64,000 nt of DNA, taken from the NCBI GenBank assembly GCA_943736015.1, contig OX031061.1:55248192-55312191 (forward strand), given 5' to 3'. The notes under the pieces are model-generated. The model had not been told where the DNA came from. It did no database searches and worked only from the letters and a program-made list of their open reading frames with translations. Below are positions 17,190 to 52,240 of the stretch, piece after piece. Numbering within the stretch: the first letter of the stretch is position 1; each line of letters begins with the position of its first letter. Both the position numbers and the translations under genes were made by a program. Source of the DNA: Tridacna crocea. Taxonomy: Eukaryota; Mollusca; Bivalvia; Cardiida; Cardiidae.

Positions 17190-17276
17190 CCTTAACACAC
17201 TGATCAACGTGAGCCGCGGACACCATGTGTTCTCGGGGCACCAGATCGAATTTTCCATGGAAGAACCGGAGGTGGT
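17190..17276 (+). pseudogene. Exon-like fragment 1 in the left arm (unrecognised protein)
   Basis: An open stretch reads ...LINVSRGHHVFSGHQ IEFSMEEPEVV and ends at a good donor, GTGGT|GTAAGT (intron from 17277). With the acceptor TTTTATTTTCAG near 17634 the reading continues in frame as VVCTWTPDQKKF. The family is not recognised. Because flanking exons look broken and duplicated, it is listed as a gene fragment. Confidence 0.4.
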
Positions 17277-17634
17277 GTAAGTATTTTCATTTTTATGGAC
17301 CTGATTAACCTAGATAGAAATGCTGATTTACAGCAATGTCAAGACGAATGATTGATCTGTTTTCACACATACTAGGGAATAATAATACCATCATATAAGC
17401 GAGCTGTGGCTTTATGAGGAACTGGGGTCTTATTGTTTTGAAGTTTGTTGCCGATTTTCGGACGAAATCCCCCAACCATTGTTCATTTTACAAGTTTGTA
17501 TGAAAAGATAAATGTATTCCCTAAAGGAACACAAAATTTCACTTAGAAATGTCCATCCAGAGCGAAGATACACGTTTTTGAATGGTCCTGGGTAGAGGAA
17601 AATATGCTAACAAGACACCATTTTTATTTTCAGA

Positions 17635-17946
17635 GTATGTACATGGACACCAGATCAGAAAAAGTTTGTGGTAACTGGACACCAACCTTTAAATCATCAA
17701 TATTTCTGCCTGAAACTCGATGCATGGGCTGTATACGAAGACTATTTTTGTAAACATTATGTCACTACGGTCCATTACCTGATAAAGAGCATGTTCAACG
17801 CAATTTCATTACTTGTAGCGCTTGCTTTTTTGAAATATTTGCAATGTTACGGAGTAGACCTACGATGCTTGATCACAATTGACCAGTCATTGCCTCCAAT
17901 GTTGGTGCAAGACATGTTCTTTTTTTTTTACAGCGTTTCAGTTTTA
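17635..17946 (+). pseudogene. Exon-like fragment 2 in the left arm (unrecognised)
   Basis: Starts after an AG acceptor and stays open to a TGA just after 17943; it includes CTWTPDQKKFVV followed by a hydrophobic, cysteine-rich stretch. A donor-like GTAACT near 17672 could instead end a ~40-bp exon. The inverted copy (about 19930-20242) is also open, so a frame has partly survived. No domain is recognised. Confidence 0.3.
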
Positions 17947-18209
17947 TGAATGGCGTATTAATCCATTACCACGCAATCACGAGCTTTAATGTCCCTGGGA
18001 AAGATGGCTTCGAAGAACATTGTCTAATACAGAGTACACATTATTTACTATATTTGGCCGGATTCTTAGTTTAAATAATTTTCAAATCCGCTTGGCCAAC
18101 TGCCGGCGGGCTCTTAGAATGGCGTTCTTCCCTTCGTACATTTGCATGCGTGCGTTTGTTCGTCTACGCGTTCATTTCTAAAATTTCTATTTAATTGACT
18201 TCTCCTCAG

Positions 18210-18481
18210 AAACCACAAAGTGGAAATCAACAAAATTCAACGTGGATGATTTGCAAAAATTTCTTTCGAGATACTTCGATCCTTCAAAAAAGATGGTTTT
18301 TGTGGAAGGAGCTTATTTTCCGTGTATGGTGCGTTGTGAAAATTGTAAAATTTGTCCTCTAAAAAGAACTCAATTACGAGATTGGCATTTGGTTGCTTTC
18401 TATCACATTCCTTCAATAAATTTTGATCTGCTGAAAAATTTGGCTTTTGTTGGTGGGACTTATTTTCTCTTTGTGTCATAA
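18210..18481 (+). pseudogene. Exon-like fragment 3 in the left arm (unrecognised)
   Basis: After the acceptor TTCTCCTCAG one frame reads TTKWKSTKFNVDDLQKFLSR and stays open to TAA at 18479. The right-arm copy has an expanded run near 19551-19565 that shifts this frame. Composition is protein-like, but no family is recognised. Confidence 0.3.
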
Positions 18482-18681
18482 AGCAGAAGTACTTGCAGCT
18501 CTTTAAATAAATTCATTCATAATACATGTATGTAGATCTACATGTATTTCATAACACAGATGATCACTGATAATGTTTCATTTTATCCAATATGCTGGGT
18601 GATCATGATATATGAGATATTGATCTTTATTGTTACAAACTTACATAGTTCTTGGAAATGCAGCATTAGTGCTCAGAAATA

Positions 18682-19167
18682 GTTTTGTACGTAGTGTGTT
18701 AGGGAATTATTAGAGAGGTTAACTGCAGCCATGGCAAATTACTAAATTAAATCTTTTCTTAAATTCGTCATCTAAAAAAAATAAAACACGTCGATTTCCT
18801 GTTTCGGTTTTTTTATTTCACTTTCTTTACAAAACCATGACGAAACAGACTGTGTATCAGAACAATTATGCTCGAAGAAATAGAATTAGACAGCAAATTC
18901 TGTGGCAGTCTGCAATTTGAGCTCACCACTGTTGGTGGGTCTGATGACCTCTCCAATAAATTTCAGCAATACGAAATACAGTAAAACCTGGCATGTTGGC
19001 CACCTGTATTAAGCAAGCAACCTGAATAAACAAGCATACTTGTATGTAGTTCCCGACAAATAGCAATGCACAGATATTAATCTGTATCAAGCAAGCACCT
19101 GCCTTTGGCAAGCTCTTGTGACCGTCCCTTTGGTAATTGATTAACATAGGTTGAACTGTAACTATTG
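18682..19167. other. Spacer between the inverted arms
   Basis: About 490 bp. 18783-18965 resembles 24505-24690, with shared words CATGACGAAACAGACTGTG, GGCAGTCTG and TCTGATGACCTCTCCAA. No gene is seen. Confidence 0.6.
18783..18965. repeat. Dispersed repeat R1, copy 1
   Basis: Shares about 180 bp of alignable sequence with 24505-24690 and lies in the loop of the large inverted duplication. Family unknown. Confidence 0.65.
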
Positions 19168-20688
19168 CTGAGCCCTAATGCTGCATTTCCAAGAACTATT
19201 TAAGTTTGTAACAATAAAGATTAATATCTCATATATCATGATCACCCAGCATGTTGGATAAAATGAAACATTATTAGTGATCATCTGTGTTATGAAATAC
19301 ATGTAGATCTACATACATGTATTATCAATGAATTTATTTAAAGAGCTGCAAGTACTTCCGCTTTATGACACAAAGAGAAAATAAGTCCCACCAACAAAAG
19401 CCATGTTTTTCAGCAGATCAAAATTTATTGAAGGAATGTGATAGAAAGCTACCCAATGGCAATCTCGTGATTGAGTTCTTTTGAGAGGACAAATTTTACA
19501 ATTTTCACAACGCGCCATACACGGAAAATAAGCTCCTTCCACATAAGCCATCTTTTTTTTTTTTTAAAGGATCGAAGTATCTCGAAACAAATTTATGGAA
19601 TCATCCACGTTGAATTTTGTTGATTTCCACTTGGTAGTTTTTGAGAAGACGTCAATTAAATAAAAAAATTAGAAATGAACGCGTAGACGAACAAACGCAC
19701 GCATGCAAATGTACGAAGGGAAGAACGCCATTCTAAGAGCCCGCTGGCAGTTGGCCAAGTGGATTTGAAAATTATTTAAACTAAGAATCAGGCCAAATGT
19801 GGTAAATAATGTACACTCTGTATAAGTTAATAGGGGCTTTTCTTCAAAGACAATGTTTTTCGAAGCCATCTTTTCCAGGGTTATTAAAGCTCGTGATTGC
19901 GTAGTAAGGGGTTAATACGCCATTCATAAAACTGAAACGCTGTAAAAAATAAAAAGAACATGTATTGCACCAACATTGGAGGCAATGACTGGTCAATTGT
20001 GATCAAGCATCGTAGGTCTACTCCGTAACATTGCAAATATTTCAAAAAAGCAAGTGCTACAAGTAATGAAATTGCGTTGAACATGCTTTTTATCAGGTAA
20101 TGGACCGTAGTGACATAATGTTTACAAAAATAGTCTTCGTATACAGCCCATGCATCGAGTTTCAGGCAGAAATATTGATGATTTAAAGGTTGGTGTCCAG
20201 TTACCACAAACTTTTTCTGATCTGGTGTCCATGTACATACTCTGAAAATAAAAATGGTGTCTTGTTAGCATATTTTCCTCTACCCAGGACCATTCAAAAA
20301 CGTGTATCTTCGCTCTAGATGGACATTTCTAAGTGAAATTTTGTGTTCCTTTAGGGAATACATTTATCTTTTCATACAAACTTGTAAAATGAACAATGGT
20401 TGGGGGGATTTTGTCCGAAAATCGGCAACAAACTTCAAAACAATAAGACCCCAGTTCCTCATAAAGCCACAGCTCGCTTATATGATGGTATTATTATTCC
20501 CTAGTATGTGTGAAAACAGATCAATCATTCGTCTTGACATTGCTGTAAATCAGCATTTCTATCTAGGTTAATCAGGTCCATAAAAATGAAAATACTTACA
20601 CCACCTCCGGTTCTTCCATGGAAAATTCGATCTGGTGTCCCGAGAACACATGGTGTCCGCGGCTCACGTTGATCAGTGTGCTTAAGTG
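19168..20688. repeat. Right arm of the large inverted duplication
   Basis: Reverse-complement partner of 17190-18681, including the donor and exon-like pieces. It has insertions such as the T-run at 19551-19565. After 20688 the sequence is unrelated to the left flank. Confidence 0.9.
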
Positions 20689-27555: not shown

Positions 27556-27642
27556 TTGACTCGGGATAAACCCAAAACCCTTTCAATATTATCCAATCAG
27601 AAATAAGCACGTATTGATTTCGGAAAACTCCGGAAATAAAAC

Positions 27643-27741
27643 ATGTTTCTATTTGTTGACAGTGGTGACACCGGTTGCGTTATCGTGTGTTTATCTAACA
27701 ATTTTTCGACACGTCAAGAATCCCTAAATTTACATGAGTGA
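27643..27741 (+). promoter_or_regulatory. Possible upstream ORF overlapping the SLC35B1 start
   Basis: ATG at 27643 opens 32 codons ending at TGA 27739-27741, overlapping the main ATG (27734) in another frame. If the transcript starts upstream of 27643, this would reduce initiation at the main start. The transcription start is unknown. Confidence 0.3.
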
Positions 27742-27918
27742 TACGTCACAGGACAAGGAAGTGGACGCAGAAAAGGCGTCTGAAACCGGAACTGACGTTT
27801 TCCTTCAGACAGGGGAAGCCTCGGAGAAGATGACCAGTGGATCAGGCAGAAAGCTGTTAATTTGCGCCCTTGGAGTCTTTGTTTCCTACTTCTACTATGG
27901 AATTTTACAGGAATCTAT
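27734..27918 (+). CDS. SLC35B1: SLC35B1 coding exon 1 (form a)
   Basis: 61 codons plus two bases. An acidic cytosolic tail is followed by membrane segment 1 ([18 protein letters not shown]). The donor AT|GTAAGA splits an Ile codon completed by exon 2. This is the conserved SLC35B1 N-terminus, so it is probably the main form. Confidence 0.95.
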
Positions 27919-36900: not shown

Positions 36901-39900
36901 AAAATTTTTGGGTGGTAAAGGGTTAACTCTTTCCCAAACAAGCCCTGGTTTAGGTGTCTGCAGTACAAGTCTTTAGAAAACACCGTGGGAAAAGGAGAAA
37001 TTGCTCGTAACGAGCAATTTCTCTTCCCACAGTGTTTTTTGGCCTATCGGAAAACTTTTCTGCCATTCTCATCAAATTCAAAATTGTAATCATTCTGCAA
37101 ACACTTTGAGTTTGGGACAGTCTAAAATTTGTCATTTGGGAAAGGGTTGAATAATATACTTTCTTATACACAAGCATGTATAAATGGCTTGCTACAGGCA
37201 AAAAGGGGCATTCAGACAGTTGCGTGAATCAAGATGTAAAGTGCCGTCTTTGATTAGTCTGTGCTGACTGCACAGGCTGATCAGAGACAACACTTTACCC
37301 AGATGTCTAAAGGCCTCTTTTCTCATGTTGCAAACCAAATGGTAATGGCTTTCCTACATGTATTTATGGCAGTTCATTGAAATTTTGTCAATTGTTTTAT
37401 TCAAATATGCCATAAATAAACCAGTGTCATGATGTAGTACAAAGTCAAGATGTTTCCCCAGGTCCTTGCTTTTGTAGGTAAACAAAGGAAAAGTAAACAC
37501 ACCTTTCATTTTATTGCACATTCTGTCAAATTCTCTCCTTTTTCATCTGTTGATCATCTTTTGATTTATCAGTCTCTGTATTTGACTTGAATTTGGGCAA
37601 GTGAAAATTTTCATTGTGCGGTAATGGGTTAAAACTTAAAAGCATGGGGGTCACTGTGCATGGGTTGATAAAAACTAGGAAAGAGATGAAAGTGTGAGCT
37701 TTTGCATCTTGGTGTAACCTGAAGTATTGCAGATCAATAAAAAGGAGTTCAATTTAATGATTTAAAGATGGGATAAGTTCTTGTTTAACATTCAGCTGTA
37801 AAAGTGTAGAACAGAATATCTAGAAACACAAAAAATGACGAACGAAATGAATCTAGTGGATATGAGTATAGTGGAAGATGATGTGATTGGTGGTCCTGAA
37901 ACTGATTTACTTACCGATGATCGTAGGAAGTTTGTGATTTGTGCATGTGGGATTCTTATCATTCACTTTGGTCTTGGAATATTAACAGAAGTCATGTAAG
38001 TGAAAATTTAGCACAGCTTTGTCAAGGAGTAACAGTTAACTCATTAAGTCATTACCCACCAACAAAATTTTAGGTTTGTCCAAATCGAAAGCATTTGCAG
38101 ACGACAAAATAAAAGTGATGGAAAATTTGAAATTTTTCTTTGGGGAAGGGACGAAAACATGGTTTGAAAAGGAGAAAATGCTGGTTGTCAGCATTTTATT
38201 CTTTTCCCACAATGTTTTCTAAAGGCTTCTTTCTCAGGGTCGTTAAAAGTTGGGATTGTTCGATAAAGGGTTAACATGCTAACATGCTAACTAAAGTTTT
38301 ACTGACCCTGAGGAAGGTTTTTGAAAAAATTTTTGGAAAAGGAGAATACAGCATTTTCTCCTGTTCCCAGAATATTTACTACTCTTTACCACGCAATCCC
38401 CACTTTCAACGACCCTGCAAAAGAAGCCTATGGAAGACATTGTGGGAAAAGAAGAAAATGCAGGTTACCAGCATTTTATCCTTTTCCCACAAGGTTTTCA
38501 AAAGCCTTTTTCTTCAATTGTGTCAAAACTCAGGATTGTGTGGTAAAGAGTTAACTCTTTACCTTTTGAGAAAATTTTCGGCTAGTCCAAATTGAAAGCT
38601 ATTGCAGATGACAAAATAAATGTGACTGAAAATTTGAAATTTGGTTTAGGAAGGGATGACAAGCGCGGATCCAGAGGGGGGGACCGGACCCCCCTGGAAT
38701 TTTGGCAGAAAAGTGGTTATCGGATTCGTGATTAGGACAGGTTTGATATCGCACAGCATTTATGTACATGTAAAATACAGCCATGAATTTAAAAAGGGTT
38801 CAAAATGTGGAGACCTCCTCATGGTTAGAACTGAAAACGTTGACTTTTCTTGTAAACGGCTTACATCCACTGAAATCCGGAAATCAAAGTACCATATAAT
38901 AAGACGAGTGCGTTTTCGGTTGAACCCCCCCCCCCTGAGAAAGATATCTGGATCCGCGCATGGATGAAAACATCGCAGTTAAAGAAGAAACTGCTGGTTA
39001 CCAGCATTTTCTCCTTTTCAAACAATGTTTTCAACAAGCTTCTTTCTCGGGGTCATTAAAGGCGGGATTGTGTGGTTAAGAGTTCAGCTTAAAAATTTTT
39101 GTTTTGTACAAAATTTATGCTTATGGAAAGGTTTAAACATTTTGTTGTTTGGTAAAGAGGTGACAGCTTAACTAAGACTTTACCAATTTATATACTCCCC
39201 CATGTTTACCCTTTTTACCATACAATCCAAAGTTATGGATATTGACTGAGAAAAGCTTTTGAAAATATTATGGGAAAAGAAGAAAATGCTGGTATTTAAC
39301 TCTAGCATCTCTATTGACTTGCGTTTTTTTAAGTTCTTCATTGTACAGAGTTAAAGCTGCAGTAAAGCCAATTAAAGAATAGGTAATTTTCACCGTGTAT
39401 AACTCGAAAATATAGTGGATAACCTATTACAAGGCACACATGTATATATGACCAGAGAAAACTCGAATGTGTCAGTTACTGCATTGGTTGCCATGATATA
39501 TGTGAGTCAGAATGCATCGAGAAACCTGTCGATTTCACAGACACCATTGATCGAGACAACCTTTGTTATTGTATGTGTATATATTTGAACTAGGTCTTCG
39601 AGAATGTCTCATGATAACATTGCATCTCAGTAGTGCTATGACGTAGTAGACAAGACTATTGTTTACAAGTCCAATATTTTGTCATTGGAGAGTAAGATTG
39701 CTCATTCCGAACCTGTTTTCTTTTTACCTCACCTGAGCACAACATGCTCAAGAGGAGCTTTTAGGATCACCCGGTGTCCGTCGTCCGTCGTGCGTCGTCA
39801 ACAATTCTTTAAACATCAACTCCTCCTAAACCGCTGGGCCAATTTGGACCAAACTTGGCTGGAATGTTCCTTGGGAGGTCCTCTTTAAAAATTGTTCACA

Positions 39901-42900
39901 GAATTTGATTCCATCAAAAAATCTGGTTGCCATGGCAACGAAATGGAAATTCTTTAAAAATCTTCTTCTCTGAAACCATTGGCCAGATTTGAAAATAATT
40001 TCACGCAGATGTTCCTTGGGTGACCCTTTTCAAAAACTGTTCGCGAAATTTTGATCTGTTAAGAAATATGGCTCTGGTGAATGGGGCTTCTTGCACTATA
40101 CAGAAATGAAGAAATTCTTAAAAATTCTTCTCTGAAACCGCTGGCCAGATTTTAAAATAATTTCACAGAGATGTTCCTTGGGTGACCCTTTTCAAAAATT
40201 GTTCGCGAAATTTTGATCCATCAAGAAACATGGCTCTGGTGAATGGGGGCTTCTTGCACTATACAGCAATGAAGAAATACTTAAAAATTCTTCTTCTCTG
40301 AAACCGATGGCCAGATTTTAAAATAATTTCACACAGATGTTCCTTGGATGATCCTTTTCAAAAATTGTTCGCGAAATTTTGATCCGTCAAGAAACATGGC
40401 TCTGGTGAATGGGGGTTTCTTGCACTATACAGAAATGAAGAAATTCTTAAAAATTCTTCTTCTCGGAAACCGCTGGTCAGATTGTAAAATAATTTCACTG
40501 AGATGTTCCTTGGGTGACCCTTTTCAAAATTGTTTGTGAAATTTTGATCTGTCAAGAAACATGGCTCTGGTGAATGGGGGACTTCTTGCACTATACAGAA
40601 ATGAAGAAATTCTTAAAAATTCTTCTTCTCTGAAACCGCTTGTCAGATTTTGAAATAATTTTACAGAGATGTTCCTTTGGTGACCCTTTTCAAAAATTGT
40701 TCGTGAAATTTTGATAGGTCAAGAAACATAGCTCTGGTGAATGGGGGCTACTCGCGCTATAGGGAAATGAAGAAATTCTTCTTCTCTCAAATGGCTGGTC
40801 AGATTTTGAAATAATTTCACACAGATGTTCCTTGGGTGACCCTTTTCAAAAATTGTTCGTGAAATTATTGATTCATCAAGAAACATGGCTCTGGTGAATG
40901 GGGGCTACTTTCACTATAGGGCAATGAAGAAATTCTTAACAATTCTTCTTCTCTGAAACAGCTGGTCAGATTTTGGAAAATTTTCACAGAGATATTCCTT
41001 GGGTGACCCTTTTCAAAAATTGTTCGTGAAAGTTTGATTCGTCGAGAAACATTGCTCTGGTGAATGGGGGCTACTTGCACTGTACAGAAATTAAGAAACT
41101 CCTAAAAATTCTTCTTTTTTGACACTGCTGGCCAGATTTTGAAATGACTTTTACAGGTGACCTTTTAAAAATTGCTTCGCAAAATAATGATTTTGTTTCC
41201 AGTGTTTCAATACCTTAAAAAAAAAAAAAAGGCTATGGTCCTCTCAAAAATTCAGGTGAGCGATCTAGGGCCATCTTGGCCCTCTTGTTTAGATGTAGTA
41301 AACTCTTCCAGTATTGAAGATAAAAAAGCGATGATCATTGTTTCAGTTTGCCATGTTGATAAACTTACATTTTTCAAGCCTACAGTGGGGGCAAAATGAT
41401 CAAGTGAATGATGAGTTTGTTTGACACTTTGAATGATCACGTGGTGTTTACTTCACTAACATTTATAATGAAAAGTTGGCTAATCGTCAGCGAGTATCAA
41501 TGTAAACAAACAGATAATGCGGCATGGTAGGATCTGTTCTAGTTTCAAAATTCTTTTTTCTGCCACTGACTGGAACTTTTGCAACTGCACCTTTACACAT
41601 TGTGAAAGTTATAATAACCGCCATATTTTTACTTGGTGAAAATGAAATTTACTTTCATTTTATCAACAGGTAGTTTATTCAATTGGATGCTACTGAGACT
41701 TCAAACAAAATCTTACAGGGTATAGTAACAGTGAATGTGTACAAGAATTGTATGGCTGCTGTATGGTGGCCTCACGTGGGAAGATTGCCATAAGCTCATT
41801 GCAGTCCAAATGTAAACTTGGCATTAAGAATGAAAAAATCATTGTAGCAAGTTGAACAAGTGCTTATTAATTGTTTACTTTAACCCTTTACCAAATGACA
41901 AAATTTTGGCGGGGCCTGAATTGAAAGTATTTGCAAGTGACAAAACAGATATGACCTGAAAATTGAAACTTGTTATAAGAAGGGTAGAAAACATTGTGGG
42001 AAAAGAAGAAAATGCTGGTTACCAGCATTTCTTCTTTTCCCACAATGTTTTCCAAAGCTTTCTTTCCTAGGATTGTTAAAAGTCGGGATTATGTGGTGAA
42101 AAGTTAAACCAGGTGAAAAGTTTTAGATTCTTTCATTTTGAAAGCATAAATTTTGCAAATATCAAATTACAAAATGTTTCTCATACCATAGGATTTGTCT
42201 ATGTAAAAAAGATGGAGGAACTTGGCTTTTTCTTACGACCCTGAGATAGAAGTCTTTTCAAAACCTTGCTGGTAACCAGCATTTTCTTCTATTCCACAAT
42301 GTTTTCTCCCTGCTGGAAACAAATTTCAATTTTTGAGTTATGTTTATCATTATAATTGTCCGTCGTCTGCAAGTGCTTTCAATTGACCTTTCTGCCGATT
42401 TGATTGACAGGTCTACCAATGTCTTATCAGCTAATGAAAACACAGCATTGGGCGTCATGTAAACAAAAAAGTCTGACACCATTTCTGGTTAGCTTGTCAG
42501 GCTTGACAACCAATATAGCCTGTTACGAAGGTGAGCGTGCCAAAATCGTGTTAACAGAAAGGTCAGTTTAACCCATTACCACATAATCCCTACTTTTGAC
42601 GACCTGAGAAAGAGGCCTTCTGAAAACATTGTGGGAAAAGGTGAAAATGCTGGTAACCAGCATTTTCTCCTTTTCCCACAATGTTTTCTAACATTCCCAA
42701 AACAAATTTTAATTTTTGAGACACATTTATTTTGTTGTCTGCAAATGCTTTCAATCTGGACAAGTCGAAGATTTTCTTGTGTGGTAGAGTTAAACCAGTC
42801 TAAAATTTTGTCGTATGGTATAGATTTAAGTAAATTTGTACATTTTGCCTTACTTGTTCATTACAGTACAAAAGGAAAGTATGGGACAGAACCTCACACA

Positions 42901-45900
42901 GAGAAGTTTACCTACACAATGGCATTGGTATTTATACAGTGTGTCATCAACTATCTGTTTGCAAAATGTGGTGAGTTAGTTTGTAAAACTTTGTCTTAAC
43001 CCTTTACCATACAATGACAACTTTCAATGACCCTGAGGAAGAGGCCTTTTGAAAACTTTATGGGAAAAGGGGAAAATGCTGGTGACTTGCATTTTCTCCT
43101 TTTCCCACAATGTTTTCTGCTCTTTCTAAATCAAATTTCAATTTTTGATTCACATTTATTTTGTCATCTGTAAATGCTTTCAATTTGGATTCAACCAAAA
43201 TTTTGTTGTGTGGTAAAGAGTTAAGCATGTCATAATTCTTAATTATTCTTCTTTAACCCTTTCCCAGACAATTCCAGGGTCCATATTCACCATCCATTCT
43301 GAAGAACATTCTTAGTCTTATTCCTCAGAATTTTGTCAGTGTGAAAGTAAGATATTCTGATTGGCTAAACCATATGGTTTAGCCAATCAGAAGTTCTGTT
43401 TCTTTCACAATTAGAAAAATTTGAAGAATAAGACAAAGAATATTTTTAAGAACGGTTGGTGAATACAGAGCCTGGTTTTCATTACCTGGAGAAAGAAGCC
43501 TTTTGAAAACATAATGAGTTTAATTTTAATAACTCCGTAATTGTGTTTTTGGTAAGGAGTCAGTGAGTACCTTTTAAAGAAGTTGAAAATTTTGAAAATT
43601 GTTGCAATTATGTTAAAAAATTGGGGAAAGTGGTTTGCCACTAAAGAAAAACACTTGCTGACATGTGATTGGTAGTTTGTACAGTATACATACTGGAACC
43701 CATAGCAGTACCTTGGCTTTTGTCAAAGTTCCATGAAATGGTAACTCTTTAAAAGGCCTTTTACAACTCTAGTTGCCTTTTGTGTTAGTATAGATCAAGA
43801 TCAAACTTTGCATTAACCCTTTCCCAAACAGTCCCTGTTTTTTATGGGTCTGGAATAATAGCCTTTTGAAAACATTGTGGGAAAAGGAGAAAATGCTGGT
43901 AACCAGCATTTTCTCCTTTTTCCGCAATGTTTTCTACCCTATCATAGACAGAAATCTTCTTTTCAGCAAGAGTTGAATTGTCGTCTGCTTTCAATTTGGT
44001 CTAGTCCAAAAGTTTGTCGTTTAGGAAAGGGTTAAAAATGGTTAAAAAAGAAGAAAAAGAAGGGAGTTTGAACAACCCTGAGAAAGAAGGATTTTGAAAA
44101 CATTGTGGGAAAAGGAGAAAATGCTGGTAATCAGCATTTTCTCCTCTTCCCACAGTTTTCTACTCAAAGGCAAGTGGACACTAAATAACAGCAAGGATGA
44201 AGCTGTTTCTTATGTGTATATTACACCTTATGATAGCATAGAAAACATTGTGACAAAAGGTGAAGCTGCTCGTGATGAGCAATTTCACCTTTTGCCAGTG
44301 TTTTCCAAAGGCTCCGACAAGCAATGCATAGAAATGAGTATAGATCTATGGAGTAAAGGTTTAACCCTTTCCCAAACAAAGCCCTGGTTTTTACGTGTCT
44401 GCAGTAAAATTATTTTGAAAATACTGTGGGAAAAGGAGAAATTGCTCATAATGAGCAATTTTTCCTTTTCCCACATTGTTTTCTACCCTTTTTGAGAACT
44501 TTATGCCATTTTATCAAAATCTAAAATTGTCGTCTGAGAACTCTTACAGTTTGGGAAAGTCCAAAATTTGTCGTTTGGGAAAGGGTTAACCTTCAAAAAG
44601 GAGGATTTGCAATTGTTGCGAACGTTCATGTTCGCAATACTGTGAATACTGGTACTTCGTAGGCTTAGGGACACTTTTCGATGCTTTAATCTAGTTTTAT
44701 TTTTCAGCCTTGACACTATTTGCTAAAGAGAAGGACACAACTCCAGCCAAAATGTATGGTGCATGTTCTTTGTCATACCTTGGTGCCATGTTGGCCAGTA
44801 ATAAAGCACTACAGTATATCAGCTATCCAACACAGGTAAAATACTTCATTGAATCAGTAGCATTTATCCCTATACTGCATAATCAGGACTTCAACCAAAT
44901 CTGAGAACAAAAAAAAAGTTAATTCTTTACCACAGGACAAAAGTTTAGATATGTCCAAAGTGAAAGCATTTGCAGATGACAATTTAAATTTTGTTTAACT
45001 CATTACCAAACGACAAAATTTTAGGTTTGTCCAAATCAAAAGCATTTGCAGACGACAAAATAAAAGTGACTGAAAATTTGAAATTTGTTTTGGGAAGGAT
45101 GGAAAACATTGTGGGAAAAGGAGAAAATGCTGGTTGCCAGCATTTTCTCCTTTTCCAACAATGTTTTTTAAAGGTTTCTTTCTGAGGGTCATTAAGGGTC
45201 AGAATTGTGTTACAAAGGGTTAATATGAGAGACCGACCCCTTTCCATATGACCACTGTCTTCCTCGGTGTTGTTAAAGCATTGGAATTGTTTGGTGACAG
45301 ATTGTTCATGACCACACTATTAAAGCTTTTTGGCTCCCATATAGCTTCAAAAAATCAAAAGTCGGGAAAGAAGTTACTGCTTGTTGCCAACCCTGAACTA
45401 AGATTCTTTTGATCAAAACTTTTCTCTGTGATGACAAAGTTATAGATCTAGACTGGTCCAAATTGAAAGTAGTTGCAGATGACAAAATAAATGTGACTGA
45501 AAAGTTGAAATTTGTTTTTGGAAGGGTAGAAAACATTGTGGGAAAAGGAGAAAATGCTGATTACCAGCATTTTCTCCATTTCTCACAGTGTTTTCAAAGG
45601 GGTCCTTTCTCAAGGTGGTTAAATGTATGGATTGTGGGTTAAAGAGATAAAGTCTAGATCATGACTTGTGATGTAGATCATGTGGTAAAGGGTTAAGAAT
45701 TACTTAACCCTTTACTCCATAGATACTCATTTCTACACATTGCTTGTAGGAGCCTTTGGAAAACATTGAGGCAAAAGGTGAAATTGCTCGTCACGAGCAA
45801 TTTCACCTTTTGCCACAATGTTTTCTACACTATCAAAAGATTTCATATACACAAAAGAAACAGCTTCATCCTTGCAGTTATTTAGGGTCAATAAGAGATA

Positions 45901-48900
45901 CCATAGAAATGTCTTATGGGGTAAAGGGTTAAAATTGCAAGTGTTATATACTTTCCATTATCTAGTAATCAAAGCTATGTCCTGATTTATTTTCTCTTTT
46001 TAAGGTATTAGGAAAGTCGGCCAAACCTATACCAGTGATGATTCTAGGTATGCTGTTGGCCAGAAAAAGATATCCACCAGCAAAATTTGTGTTCATTTTC
46101 ATGATCTGTATTGGAGTAGCCATGTTTATGTACAAAGATAGGCAAACTTCCTCCAAGGAAGGCACCTCTTTTGGGCTGGGAGAGATCTTACTGGTAAGAT
46201 ACATGTATTGCTATCATGTCAAAGATAGATGGTTTTATTTCATGCTTTCTGGTAGATGATCGAGAAATATCGCTGAAATATATTTTGATATTTCACGGTT
46301 ACGACCAGTGAAAATCCAGATTTTTATATTCCAGTTACTTAGGTAAATTGTGCATGACTCGCTACCAGATGGAAATTTGACATAATTTACCTTACATTTC
46401 TCGTGCTTGACATAATACTGTAATGTGTCGCTATGTGGAGGGGCTACGCCGCCTGAAATTTATAACTGAAAAAAACTGCACTGGAATTGGATAAAGTTCC
46501 TCCCAGAAAGGGTTAAAAGCATGAAATAAATAGAGTAGATATATTTTTTATTTTGGTTTAAACTAAAAGTTTATTTCATCTTGTGAACACCATTGGTAAT
46601 ATTTTCACTTGTAGTTGTGGCACTCATGTAAATGTTACCAATGACGTTCACTCCATGAAATATATTTTGATCTTTAACTCTTTACCAAACGACAAAATTT
46701 TAATCTGGTCTAAATTGAAAGCATTTGCAGACAACAATATAAATGTGACTGAAAATGGAATTTTTTTGGGGGAAGGGTAGAAAACATTATGGGAAAAGGA
46801 GAAAATGCTGGTTATCAGCATTTTCGGCTTTTCCAACAATGTTTTCAAAAGGCTTCTATCTCAGGGTCGTTAAAAGTTTGGATTGTGTAGTAAAAAGTTA
46901 AGATGTAGGCCAGTAACTACCAATAGAATGATTGAAGCCCAAACTTAGTGAAAATACATGTTACAAAGCTTTGCATCTTGTTAAGCAATATACTCTTATA
47001 TTTATATGTCCACAGCTAGTTTCCCTTACGCTAGATGGGCTGACTGGTGCTACACAAGATAGAATGAGATCTGATCATAAAACAGGGGCCTATAGTATGA
47101 TGTCCCAAGTGAACTTGTGGTCTGTGTTGTGGTTAGCTATCGGTGAGTTATTCATTTCTGTTCTTCTTTATTTCCTTAACCCATTACCACACAGGAAAAT
47201 GACCGTGCTGTGGAATTATCTCCCCTTGAACTCTTTTCAACTCTTACTTTTGTACTATACCATTCTGCATTCTGTGACAAAGACCTGTTATTGTGACAAG
47301 GATCAGGTGGGGGGGTATAATCATGTTTAGTGATGGCTCTAGTTCTTTACTGTAATCTCATAGAGACATGACAAGCTTTTTCTGTGCAAAGTTAAAAAAT
47401 CTGTCTTTTTGGAAAATTTGTGGTATATGTCTCTAATGGGCTTTCTCTCATTTCAGGACTTTCAATATCTGATGAAGGCTTAGATTTCCTTGCCTTTGTC
47501 CAGCGACATCCATCTGTTCTCTATAAAATGGTCACTTTTGGGTTAGCCAGTGCAGTTGGTCAAGTAAGTAGTAGCCTTTATATACTACTCAAAATTTGCT
47601 AGGGATCACCCTAAAAGATTCACTCTAAATATATATGTGGCATGTATCATTTTTGGTTTTACAATAAGTTACATTGCCACACTGAGCAATAAATTGACCG
47701 ATGGAAATGGATCTTTAAGCCTTTACCTGACAATGCCGACTGTTAAAGACACTGAGAAGCCTTTGAAAACATTGTTGGAAAAGGAGAAAATGCTGGATAC
47801 CAACATTTTCTCCTTTTCCAACAATGTTTTCTACCCTGAATTAAATTCAAAAGTATTATGACAGCTGCTTCAATATTCTGGCCTTTACTGGGCCTTTAAG
47901 CAGAGAGAAAGAAGTGAATGCAATCTTAATCAGTCACAGTGATCAATTCTTGAAACAAGGTTAGTAATTCAGAGATAAGACTGAGTTCAAAAAGACAACA
48001 CTGTCAAAGGAAGTATTAATAGTGTTACTGGAGACCACTCCTTCATGCATGTCTTTGTCCCGATTTAACCCATTACCACACAATCCTGGGAAAGAAGCCT
48101 TTAGAAAACATTGTTGGAAAAGGAGAAAATGCTGATAATCAGCATTTTCTCCTTTTCCCACAATGTTTTCTACTCTTCACAAAACCAATTTCAAATTTTC
48201 AGTCACTTTTATTTTGTCGTCTGCAATTGCTTTCGATTTGGACAAACCTAAATTATTGTCATGTAGTAAAGAGTTAAATGCAATACATAACAACTGCTTT
48301 GGGGAGATATCACTTTAGCTTTATAAGTAAGGTATTGCCCGTTGGCTGTTCATCTGGGCGATCTAGCGTTCGAATCCTACCCGGTCCCTTATTTCTGCCA
48401 TTCATTTGTTCATTAGTTTCTTTGTTGAGAACTTTTTTCGTAAAAATACAGTATAAAAATCAGAATGGTTAGAGCTTATAGTCTAATCTAAGATCTCAGT
48501 GATAAGGCACTGCCTGAGATGTACTGACAAAATCAACCCTGAAGTCTCATGGCTTTCAATTTTTGTTTTATTTTCATTCATTTGGCATTTTCAGGCATAG
48601 CAAGTCCTTAACAAAGCATTAACAAAAGACACAGCAACCTGGCAGGCATTAATCTAGTTTTAATATTAAAAATCCGATTGAACCCTTGTTCTTCTAAATA
48701 AATTTAATAAAACTTTCGAGCCGAAGATTGATTCCAAAATAATGCCATTGAAAATTTACTTTTTGAAGAAAAAATACCTTCTTAGCAGACATTGTACATG
48801 CAAGATCAGACTGCATTTTTTGTGCAGTCTGATCTTGGATCTACGATGTCCACTAAAGGTCAATGAGTCATGCTTAGTAGCCGAAGGAATGATATATATC

Positions 48901-50529: not shown

Positions 50530-51740
50530 CCAAGATCCCATATCAGTATCACAAGTCCTAAATTCACTATCAATGTGGATAATTTCTTGCAATTCACATC
50601 CAAAAAGTTCCAGTGCATGTTGATGCAGAATGCACATTTGTTTCAAGATCACCACTTGCTACACTTTCACTGCTAACAGACTCGCATAAAAATCCACTCT
50701 TTTTGAAGCACACAAAACATCATTCCATGAGGAATTCGCCCAGTAGATGGCCTGTAGAATGTTGATGTCTCTAAGAATCTGGGGACCTCTGGCAGATTGA
50801 TTATGCTCAAGTTCTACAGTAACATGTTGGAGCTGTCGTTTTCGATATTTTAGTTTCAGTGTTTGAATGATGCCCTTGACCATGGGCTGTGGTATTAGCA
50901 GGTAAGAATTTTATCATTATGTTCTTGAGAGGAATCTGTGGGTGTGATGGAGCATTATCCAAAAAAAGTAAGATGTTTCTTTTCTGCTGTTGCATTTTGT
51001 GGTCAAACCATTGTAACCAGTCTTCCATTATCCCACTTGTCATCCCAGCTTTTTTGTTCGAGTAGTACCTGACTGGTAGTTTTTTTTATTTCCTTATGAC
51101 TATGAGAGGCAGCTTCTCACTAGTAGCAAATGAACAAAGGCCAATTGTGATACGTTCTTTGGATCTTTTGCCACCAGCACATGTCTCACCTTTCTTAAAG
51201 TAAGTCGATTGGTAGTGTCTCTGTAGAAGAGGCCTGTTTCATCCATGTTGAATGTCTTCATCTTTAAATTCCTCACACAATGTTGGAATACGAGATTTCC
51301 AGTCCTTCACAATGTTTAAGTTCACTTCTGCTCTCTCCCCAGATTGTTTCTTGAAAATAATGTTATTCCTTTTAAGAAAAGTATCTAGCCAACCATTGGA
51401 AGCTTTGAATTCTGTCAATTTCAAATCTTCTGCAAATTTCAATCCTTTTTCCTTCAAGAGGGGACTAGACACATTGACCTGTCGGGATGTGGCATTTAAA
51501 AACCATTTGTATACTAAATCGTTCAAATCGTCATACTCCGTAGTGCGTCTTGCACGTTTCAGTGAAGCATTGGAGTTGCTTTCATATTCTTCCAAAATTT
51601 CTCTTTCTTTTCAGAATAGACTGGATTTGGGTCTTTCCTACCCCCATCTTAGGGGCAGTGGTTCTGCAACTTCTGCCTGACTCCATCATTTTCAGGGCCT
51701 TCACCCGATCTTCAAGCCTTAAACGTTTTCTTGAAACCAT
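50530..51740 (-). pseudogene. pogo/Tigger-type (CENP-B-like) transposase, frameshifted
   Basis: In order on the minus strand: an N-terminal helix-turn-helix (RLRLEDRVKALKMMESGRS, then VGKTQIQSILKRK), a CENP-B-type DNA-binding part (GWLDTFLKRNNI) and a DDE_1 core with DETGLFYR (Asp at 51242-51244) and LFLDNAPSHP (Asp at 50957-50959), then FLPANTTA and GIIQTLKLKYRKR. ATG at 51740. Frame is lost near 51255 and 51195, an in-frame stop lies near 51087, and sequence is missing near 50887. Similarity appears to run to the LTR edge. No Tigger inverted ends are obvious. Dead copy of a DNA-transposon gene. Confidence 0.85.
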
Positions 51741-52240
51741 TGTAGCACGTTGATAATATCCGATTGTTATAACTTGCAACACGAGATCATGAATGAATGT
51801 GACTTTGTTTTCCATTTCCATTTAGATTAAGATCTAACTCAACAAAATCGGTGAAAAGCGGCAACAATAGCGCAATATACCATTCCTTAAACCCTCTAGA
51901 TTTATTTCATAAGTTGGTATTGATTTTTGATTGCTAGAATCCTCTTTGTTGGGCTCATCACAAAAAAGACTTCCTAGTTTTCCAACTTAATTGGTGTTCG
52001 ATTTCAATTTGCTCTGCAGTTCCTCTGAAAATGGCCAGGTCGATCACACCTATAACAAAGTCTTTGATATCTATGTCTTTGATTTTCATTTCTGTCTTTT
52101 ATTTTCCGTTACTTCATTTATGTGATGCCAATGCCTATCCAGCCTATACCTATTGTTCCAAGGCAATGTGAAGTGTGTTGGTTATGGTAATTTGAGTGAT
52201 TGCTTGTTCTTAAATTGGAACATTTTCTAAGGTTTTGTTC
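51741..52240. other. LTR-element interior, unassigned
   Basis: No domain recognised on either strand. May hold the upstream flank of the transposase gene or eroded gag/pol sequence. Confidence 0.4.

Follow-up and report, generated by a model that had tools for sequence, protein, structure and literature searches.

A candidate alternative first exon in intron 1 of Tridacna crocea SLC35B1 predicts a second transporter form with a diverged first transmembrane segment

SLC35B1, or AXER, is the ATP/ADP exchanger of the endoplasmic reticulum (ER), and its role as the route of ATP into the ER was confirmed only recently, according to passages of a study on the human protein (PMC12267056). In the mechanism described in those passages, E33 at the end of the first transmembrane segment (TM1) bonds N290 in luminal closure, and the E33A mutant is a mostly luminal-facing carrier. 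Y25, also in TM1, contacts Q254, the residue that holds the ribose. Y25A is inactive, and the Y25, T273, and Q254 mutants, for which one joint range is given, retain 40 to 60% of ATP-induced stabilization. Tyr25 is the one nucleotide-site residue of exon 1 named in these passages, in which Y27, Y28, and Q32 were not found discussed.

Human SLC35B1 mRNA variants differ at their N-terminus, as reported in passages of PMC6113206: isoform 2 has 37 additional residues, and variant 2 carries an 11-residue peptide in place of the first 78 residues, including two helices, and shows much lower transport. Four isoform terms had no match in PMC6763289. In the Manila clam transcriptome, alternative first exons are one of the event types that make up much of the splicing in every tissue, according to a passage of PMC9803972 that deals with event types only. 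Among the records listed for SLC35B1, transporters, and alternative first exons, no title or abstract opening describes an alternative homologous TM1 for SLC35B1.

The SLC35B1 locus of the bivalve Tridacna crocea compares with these systems on several points. Like the human gene in PMC6113206, it is predicted to give one transporter with N-terminal variants, and its second first exon, here called exon 1b, would represent the same type of event as those recorded in the Manila clam. In contrast, the three human forms named in the passages of PMC6113206 include no exchange of TM1 for a homologous but diverged version of it, which is what a duplicated exon is predicted to bring about here. N-terminal SLC35B1 variants and alternative first exons in general are known, and an alternative homologous TM1 exon for SLC35B1 would be new.

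We analyzed a stretch of 64,000 nucleotides (the window, C6:55248192-55312191) from the T. crocea assembly of 1.05 Gb and 31 contigs. An SLC35B1 gene lies on the plus strand of the window, with exon 1a, candidate exon 1b, and six common exons (Table 1). Exons 2 to 7 were placed by enumerating GT/AG sites near the regions that tblastn aligned with human SLC35B1. GT-AG introns therefore result by construction, and the gene model is the best of 28 open models longer than 320 aa, with 363 bits versus 362 for the runner-up. Recomputation from the sequence confirmed what the first-pass annotation had stated of the positions of exons 1a and 1b, their ATGs, the common AT/GTAAG junction (the slash marks the exon end), and the in-frame join to 42867. 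Either exon 1 has the same donor phase and, joined to exon 2, reads Ile-TKGKYG across the junction; the donor of exon 1b, CAT/GTAAGT, is near-consensus, and that of exon 1a is TAT/GTAAGA.

Table 1. Positions of the SLC35B1 exons and associated features in the window
Feature	Position	Strand	Remarks
ERSE-like site	27593..27611	+	CCAAT-N9-GCACG, one mismatch; 122 bases from exon 1a ATG; lead only
Exon 1a, coding part	27734..27918	+	Acidic N-tail followed by TM1; Y25, E33 (human numbering); end AT/GTAAGA
Repeat-free stretch around exon 1b	37353..38040	+	No repeat found; interspersed repeats flank both sides
Exon 1b, coding part	37835..37995	+	Acidic N-tail followed by divergent TM1; H25, E33; end AT/GTAAGT
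Exon 2 (common)	42867..42970	+	Acceptor TTACAG; in frame with either exon 1
Exon 3 (common)	44708..44835	+	5' end is the least certain
Exon 4 (common)	46005..46193	+	Carries K117, K120 equivalents
Exon 5 (common)	47016..47142	+	
Exon 6 (common)	47457..47563	+	
Exon 7 (common) and stop codon	49233..49445	+	Carries R276, K277, N290 equivalents

Both starts lead to full-length conceptual proteins. Form A, which starts in exon 1a, has 350 aa and is 58% identical to human SLC35B1 over 307 residues (69.6% over the 23 aa of TM1), and form B, which starts in exon 1b, has 342 aa and is 55% identical over 313. Residues 25-337 of form B align to human SLC35B1 (PDB 9grz) with an E value of 9e-111, the best of its PDB matches, which at E<=1 comprise three distinct sequences, all of them SLC35B1. 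Against the UAA profile PF08449 (cut-off 26.2 bits), form A scores 174.7 bits, form B 163.3, and the common part alone 159.8; the gain over the common part is 14.9 bits for exon 1a and 3.5 bits for exon 1b, a low value that is consistent with a diverged TM1. Exon 1b has 161 coding bases with 53 open codons and an intact donor, without stops, frameshift, or donor loss; its ATG has an A at -3, and an in-frame stop lies upstream of it at 37799-37801. Its helix is strongly hydrophobic (Kyte-Doolittle mean of 2.39 over 19 residues), and insertion as TM1 is therefore plausible. In exon 1a, the first ATG (27734) has a T at -3, and a second in-frame ATG with an A at -3 occurs at 27830, from which form A may also be made as a shorter version beginning MTSGSGRK.

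The likeness between the two first exons is confined to the protein level. The first-pass annotation had counted 10 identical residues among the 23 of TM1; the low identity stands, and the count is corrected to 11 of 23 by our recount. The YFYY stretch of exon 1a is indeed lost in exon 1b, where it reads HFGL, and both tails are acidic as described, with 9 D/E and 3 K/R in 38 residues for exon 1a and 9 D/E and 0 K/R in 29 for exon 1b. An ungapped BLOSUM62 scan of stop-free 23-mers in the six frames of the whole window, scored against the exon 1a segment, ranked exon 1b second only to exon 1a itself among 37,288 segments, with a score of 57 and the third best at 33. Among the 1,915 stop-free segments that precede NN/GT, the third best, behind 1a and 1b, scores 10. 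The same scan over 65,223 bases of 20 other loci, some mutually overlapping and two of which (L005 and L007) overlap the window, gave 48 as its best score, for TM1 of a paralogue (L002), followed by 34. Exon 1b is closer to the TM1 of exon 1a than is this SLC35B-family paralogue, which lies on C3 and is covered by one open frame. A chance match of exon 1b to the exon 1a TM1 was ruled out by the score ranking, and the placement of exon 1b fits a first exon of this gene: same strand, within intron 1, and in matching phase. Exons 1a and 1b were not paired by blastn (plus strand, E<=10), and the duplication is therefore probably old.

Whether exon 1b could belong to another gene was considered at the scale of the genome. 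Among the best candidates scored, a PF08449 profile search gave 20 matches, two of which are exons 4 and 7 of the SLC35B1 gene. Of the UAA loci away from the SLC35B1 gene, those on C3 and C4 and a single one on C7 resemble form A, with 31-39% identity (L002, which L027 overlaps; L003; and L004, which L012 overlaps), and the remaining loci have no match to form A at E<=1e-3. Queries made of exon 1b plus exon 2 and of exon 1a plus exon 2 each had three matches in the genome, and the best outside the locus, among the best candidates scored, had E values of 5.3 and 0.79, respectively. We rejected exon 1b as the head of a second SLC35B1 gene: among the best candidates scored, no further SLC35B1 exons occur in the 1.05-Gb assembly or as duplicates in the window. 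It is thus unlikely that exon 1b heads another gene, and since no other SLC35B1 exons were found, exon 2 of this gene is the sole partner found for it.

An origin of exon 1b from a repeat was likewise ruled out: at E<=0.001 its DNA is matched once in the genome, and the stretch around it gave no sign of a repeat. A genome search with 37155-38040, in which the best 40 of 2,752 candidates were scored, listed matches other than the locus itself only in the repeat to the left. Within 37000-38600, comparison with the rest of the window placed repeats at 37000-37154 and 38041-38599, and a genome repeat occupies 37176-37352, left of exon 1b. Viral contigs gave 19 pattern matches, none of which was confirmed, and phage records gave no match.

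Repeats and putative mobile elements also occur farther from the gene. Between 1364 and 14587, a 168-bp repeat forms eight rows, each holding about two copies and spaced by 1,830-1,850 bases, and open stretches recur at the same spacing, which suggests a head-to-tail array of a unit of about 1.83 kb. A large inverted repeat spans 17196-20680 around a center near 18.9 kb; its arms show 99% complementarity over 461 and 278 nt, 95% over 399 nt, and 92% over 233 nt. On the minus strand, an open stretch at 52564-53127 matches Pfam Retrotrans_gag with 24.5 bits (cut-off 24.1), and 51585-51821 resembles the helix-turn-helix and CENP-B_N profiles weakly, with scores under the respective cut-offs. The stretch at 51103-51306 (minus strand) has no Pfam match and contains 'MDETGLFY', which we take to be a pogo/Tigger-like transposase likeness; the short stretches in 51103-51821 may derive from such a transposase.

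By codon position, exons 1a and 1b agree at 11, 17, and 9 of 23 first, second, and third positions, respectively. Third positions look saturated, since they agree no more often than shuffled letters do (mean 6.05, P 0.12), and second positions are far above the shuffled level (P 0.0001). This pattern by itself is no proof of constraint on exon 1b; constraint on exon 1a could give part of it, and simulations were therefore run in which only the 1b branch drifted. In these simulations, present-day exon 1a served as the ancestor, mutation was equal on both branches (range 10-90 for drift and 10-160 for constraint), exon 1b was left to drift or was constrained, indels were omitted, and runs near the observed nucleotide identity were accepted. 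Stop-free copies scoring at least 57 arose in 49 of 97,697 accepted runs under drift (0.05%) versus 1,438 of 42,906 under constraint at a ratio of 0.3 (3.4%), a 67-fold difference. When only runs still detectable (score of at least 35) were counted, about 1.2% under drift and 7.4% under constraint reached 57, a ratio of only about sixfold. Stop-free copies that kept at least 11 of the 23 residues made up 0.5-0.7% of accepted runs under drift and 11-25% under constraint, depending on the ratio set, and 0.24% in a drift simulation with all change assigned to exon 1b. A stricter joint test, in which an uncharged helix core and G20, G29, and E33 had to be kept, gave 0 of 2,829 and 0 of 2,594 under drift and 0.05-0.16% under constraint; it was discarded as evidence because exon 1a itself fails it (Gln32). 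Indels would be expected to favor constraint further. Neutral drift of exon 1b is disfavored by these comparisons.

The same results bear on the rival view that exon 1b is an unused, decaying relic, either a duplicated first exon or all that is left of a tandem copy of SLC35B1 since lost, whose frame and donor stayed open by luck. Its coding part is short, and 4.6% of the 54-codon frames sampled from intron 1 lack a stop; the modest ratio among detectable copies, the CpG-poor DNA upstream, and the loss of Y25, Y27, Y28, and Q32 all fit decay. However, a relic would have had to reach by drift a score that so few accepted drift runs attain, keep its second codon positions despite the saturated-looking third ones, and retain the frame, AT/GTAAG, G20, G29, and E33 together, and we consider it improbable.

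To characterize the two predicted proteins, 24 positions of human SLC35B1 were mapped onto forms A and B. The common exons keep Q113, K117, S118, K120, D183, Q190, R194, Q254, I257, V261, C269, T273, R276, K277, and N290, and the ATP/ADP site set (Q113, K117, K120, Q190, Q254, I257, V261, T273, R276, and K277) together with the gate pair E33-N290 is complete in both forms (12/12). From exon 1, F26, G29, and E33 are present in both forms, and G20 is likewise retained in exon 1b. The second luminal gate pair, R37-N109, is not kept, being Lys and Ser in both forms, and makes no distinction between A and B. Compared with the human mechanism in the passages of PMC12267056, the mapped site and gate residues outside exon 1 are therefore kept except R37 and N109, and form B differs in having His at position 25, where the human Y25A mutant is inactive, and Gly, Leu, and Thr for Y27, Y28, and Q32. 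The first-pass annotation had proposed two transporter forms; a second N-terminus holds up as the best reading, and the swap of Y25 for His at the nucleotide site had been overlooked. Exon choice would thus exchange Tyr25 without altering the gate residue E33 or the charged part of the site.

By descent, form B would be an SLC35B1 form, and its ATP/ADP exchange is putative. We expect an altered carrier, the nearest rival being a dead or regulatory form. In the latter case, exon 1b would be transcribed into a transport-dead SLC35B1 form that competes with or tunes form A, a sub-case that is compatible with the preferred reading. The inactivity of human Y25A (PMC12267056, in the passages available) points in this direction, as does the existence of N-terminal variants of low activity, such as human variant 2, which lacks TM1-2 and transports much less (passages of PMC6113206). 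Nevertheless, His differs from Ala, and a hydrogen bond from it to Q254 might persist; form B also retains E33 and the remaining mapped site residues, and human Y25A retains part of the ATP-induced stabilization, measured jointly for the three mutants cited above, so that binding is not lost (passages of PMC12267056). A transport-dead form B is, on this balance, rather unlikely.

The DNA preceding the two first exons differs in CpG content. Upstream of the exon 1a ATG, the CpG observed/expected ratio over 250 bp is 1.34, within the highest 3.3% of windows in 15-64 kb, and that over 500 bp is 0.88, within the highest 15%. Upstream of exon 1b, the corresponding values are 0.16, within the lowest 14% of these windows, and 0.07, within the lowest 1.3%, which speaks against a constitutive promoter at exon 1b. 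In many invertebrates, germline-methylated gene bodies are marked by CpG depletion. If the depletion seen here marks a methylated gene body, a constitutive promoter would lie at exon 1a, and exon 1b would have at most a restricted promoter or be preceded by a non-coding exon upstream. Before exon 1b, the CpG-poor DNA contains a TATA-like ATAAAAAG at 37737. Before exon 1a, an ERSE-like site was called from CCAAT-N9-CCACG, presumably the ER stress element consensus; the window holds two such matches versus 1.97 expected by chance, and the site is therefore a lead only. Two promoters, as the first-pass annotation had suggested, may exist.

As an alternative to a promoter of its own, exon 1b might be preceded by a non-coding 5' exon upstream, and a single promoter could then serve both forms; this conflicts with the preferred reading only over the promoter. 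A pyrimidine-rich stretch ending in AG at 37778-37795, with the in-frame stop just beyond it, would suit an acceptor for such an exon, and the CpG-poor DNA before exon 1b agrees with it. Against this, no upstream 5' exon was noticed, and exon 1a is directly preceded by CpG-rich DNA and would itself be a first exon. We regard an upstream exon as doubtful, at about the same level as a transport-dead form B.

Taken together, the homology, matching phase, and intact frame of exon 1b make it probable that this exon arose long ago by duplication of the SLC35B1 coding first exon, has stayed functional, and yields a second transporter form. In the mechanism we propose, the coding first exon of SLC35B1 would have been duplicated long ago into intron 1, and transcripts starting at or before 37.8 kb would splice exon 1b, instead of exon 1a, to exon 2, perhaps from a restricted promoter of its own. 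Their product would be a full-length transporter with a different acidic tail and a different TM1, in which the luminal gate residue E33 is retained and His, Gly, Leu, and Thr stand at Y25, Y27, Y28, and Q32. Nucleotide handling by form B would then be altered: it might transport more slowly or with another selectivity, or be inactive and have a regulatory role.

A more specific proposal, which we put forward tentatively and hold to be possible more than probable, is that, in the one SLC35B1 gene that the genome searches found, first-exon choice acts as a switch that replaces Tyr25 by His and changes the aromatic face of TM1, giving the ER carrier a preference or rate specific to tissue or state. 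A natural His25 form with the other mapped site residues unchanged would offer a ready-made probe of the role of Tyr25. If the proposal is true, ER ATP supply would be tunable through the choice of first exon.
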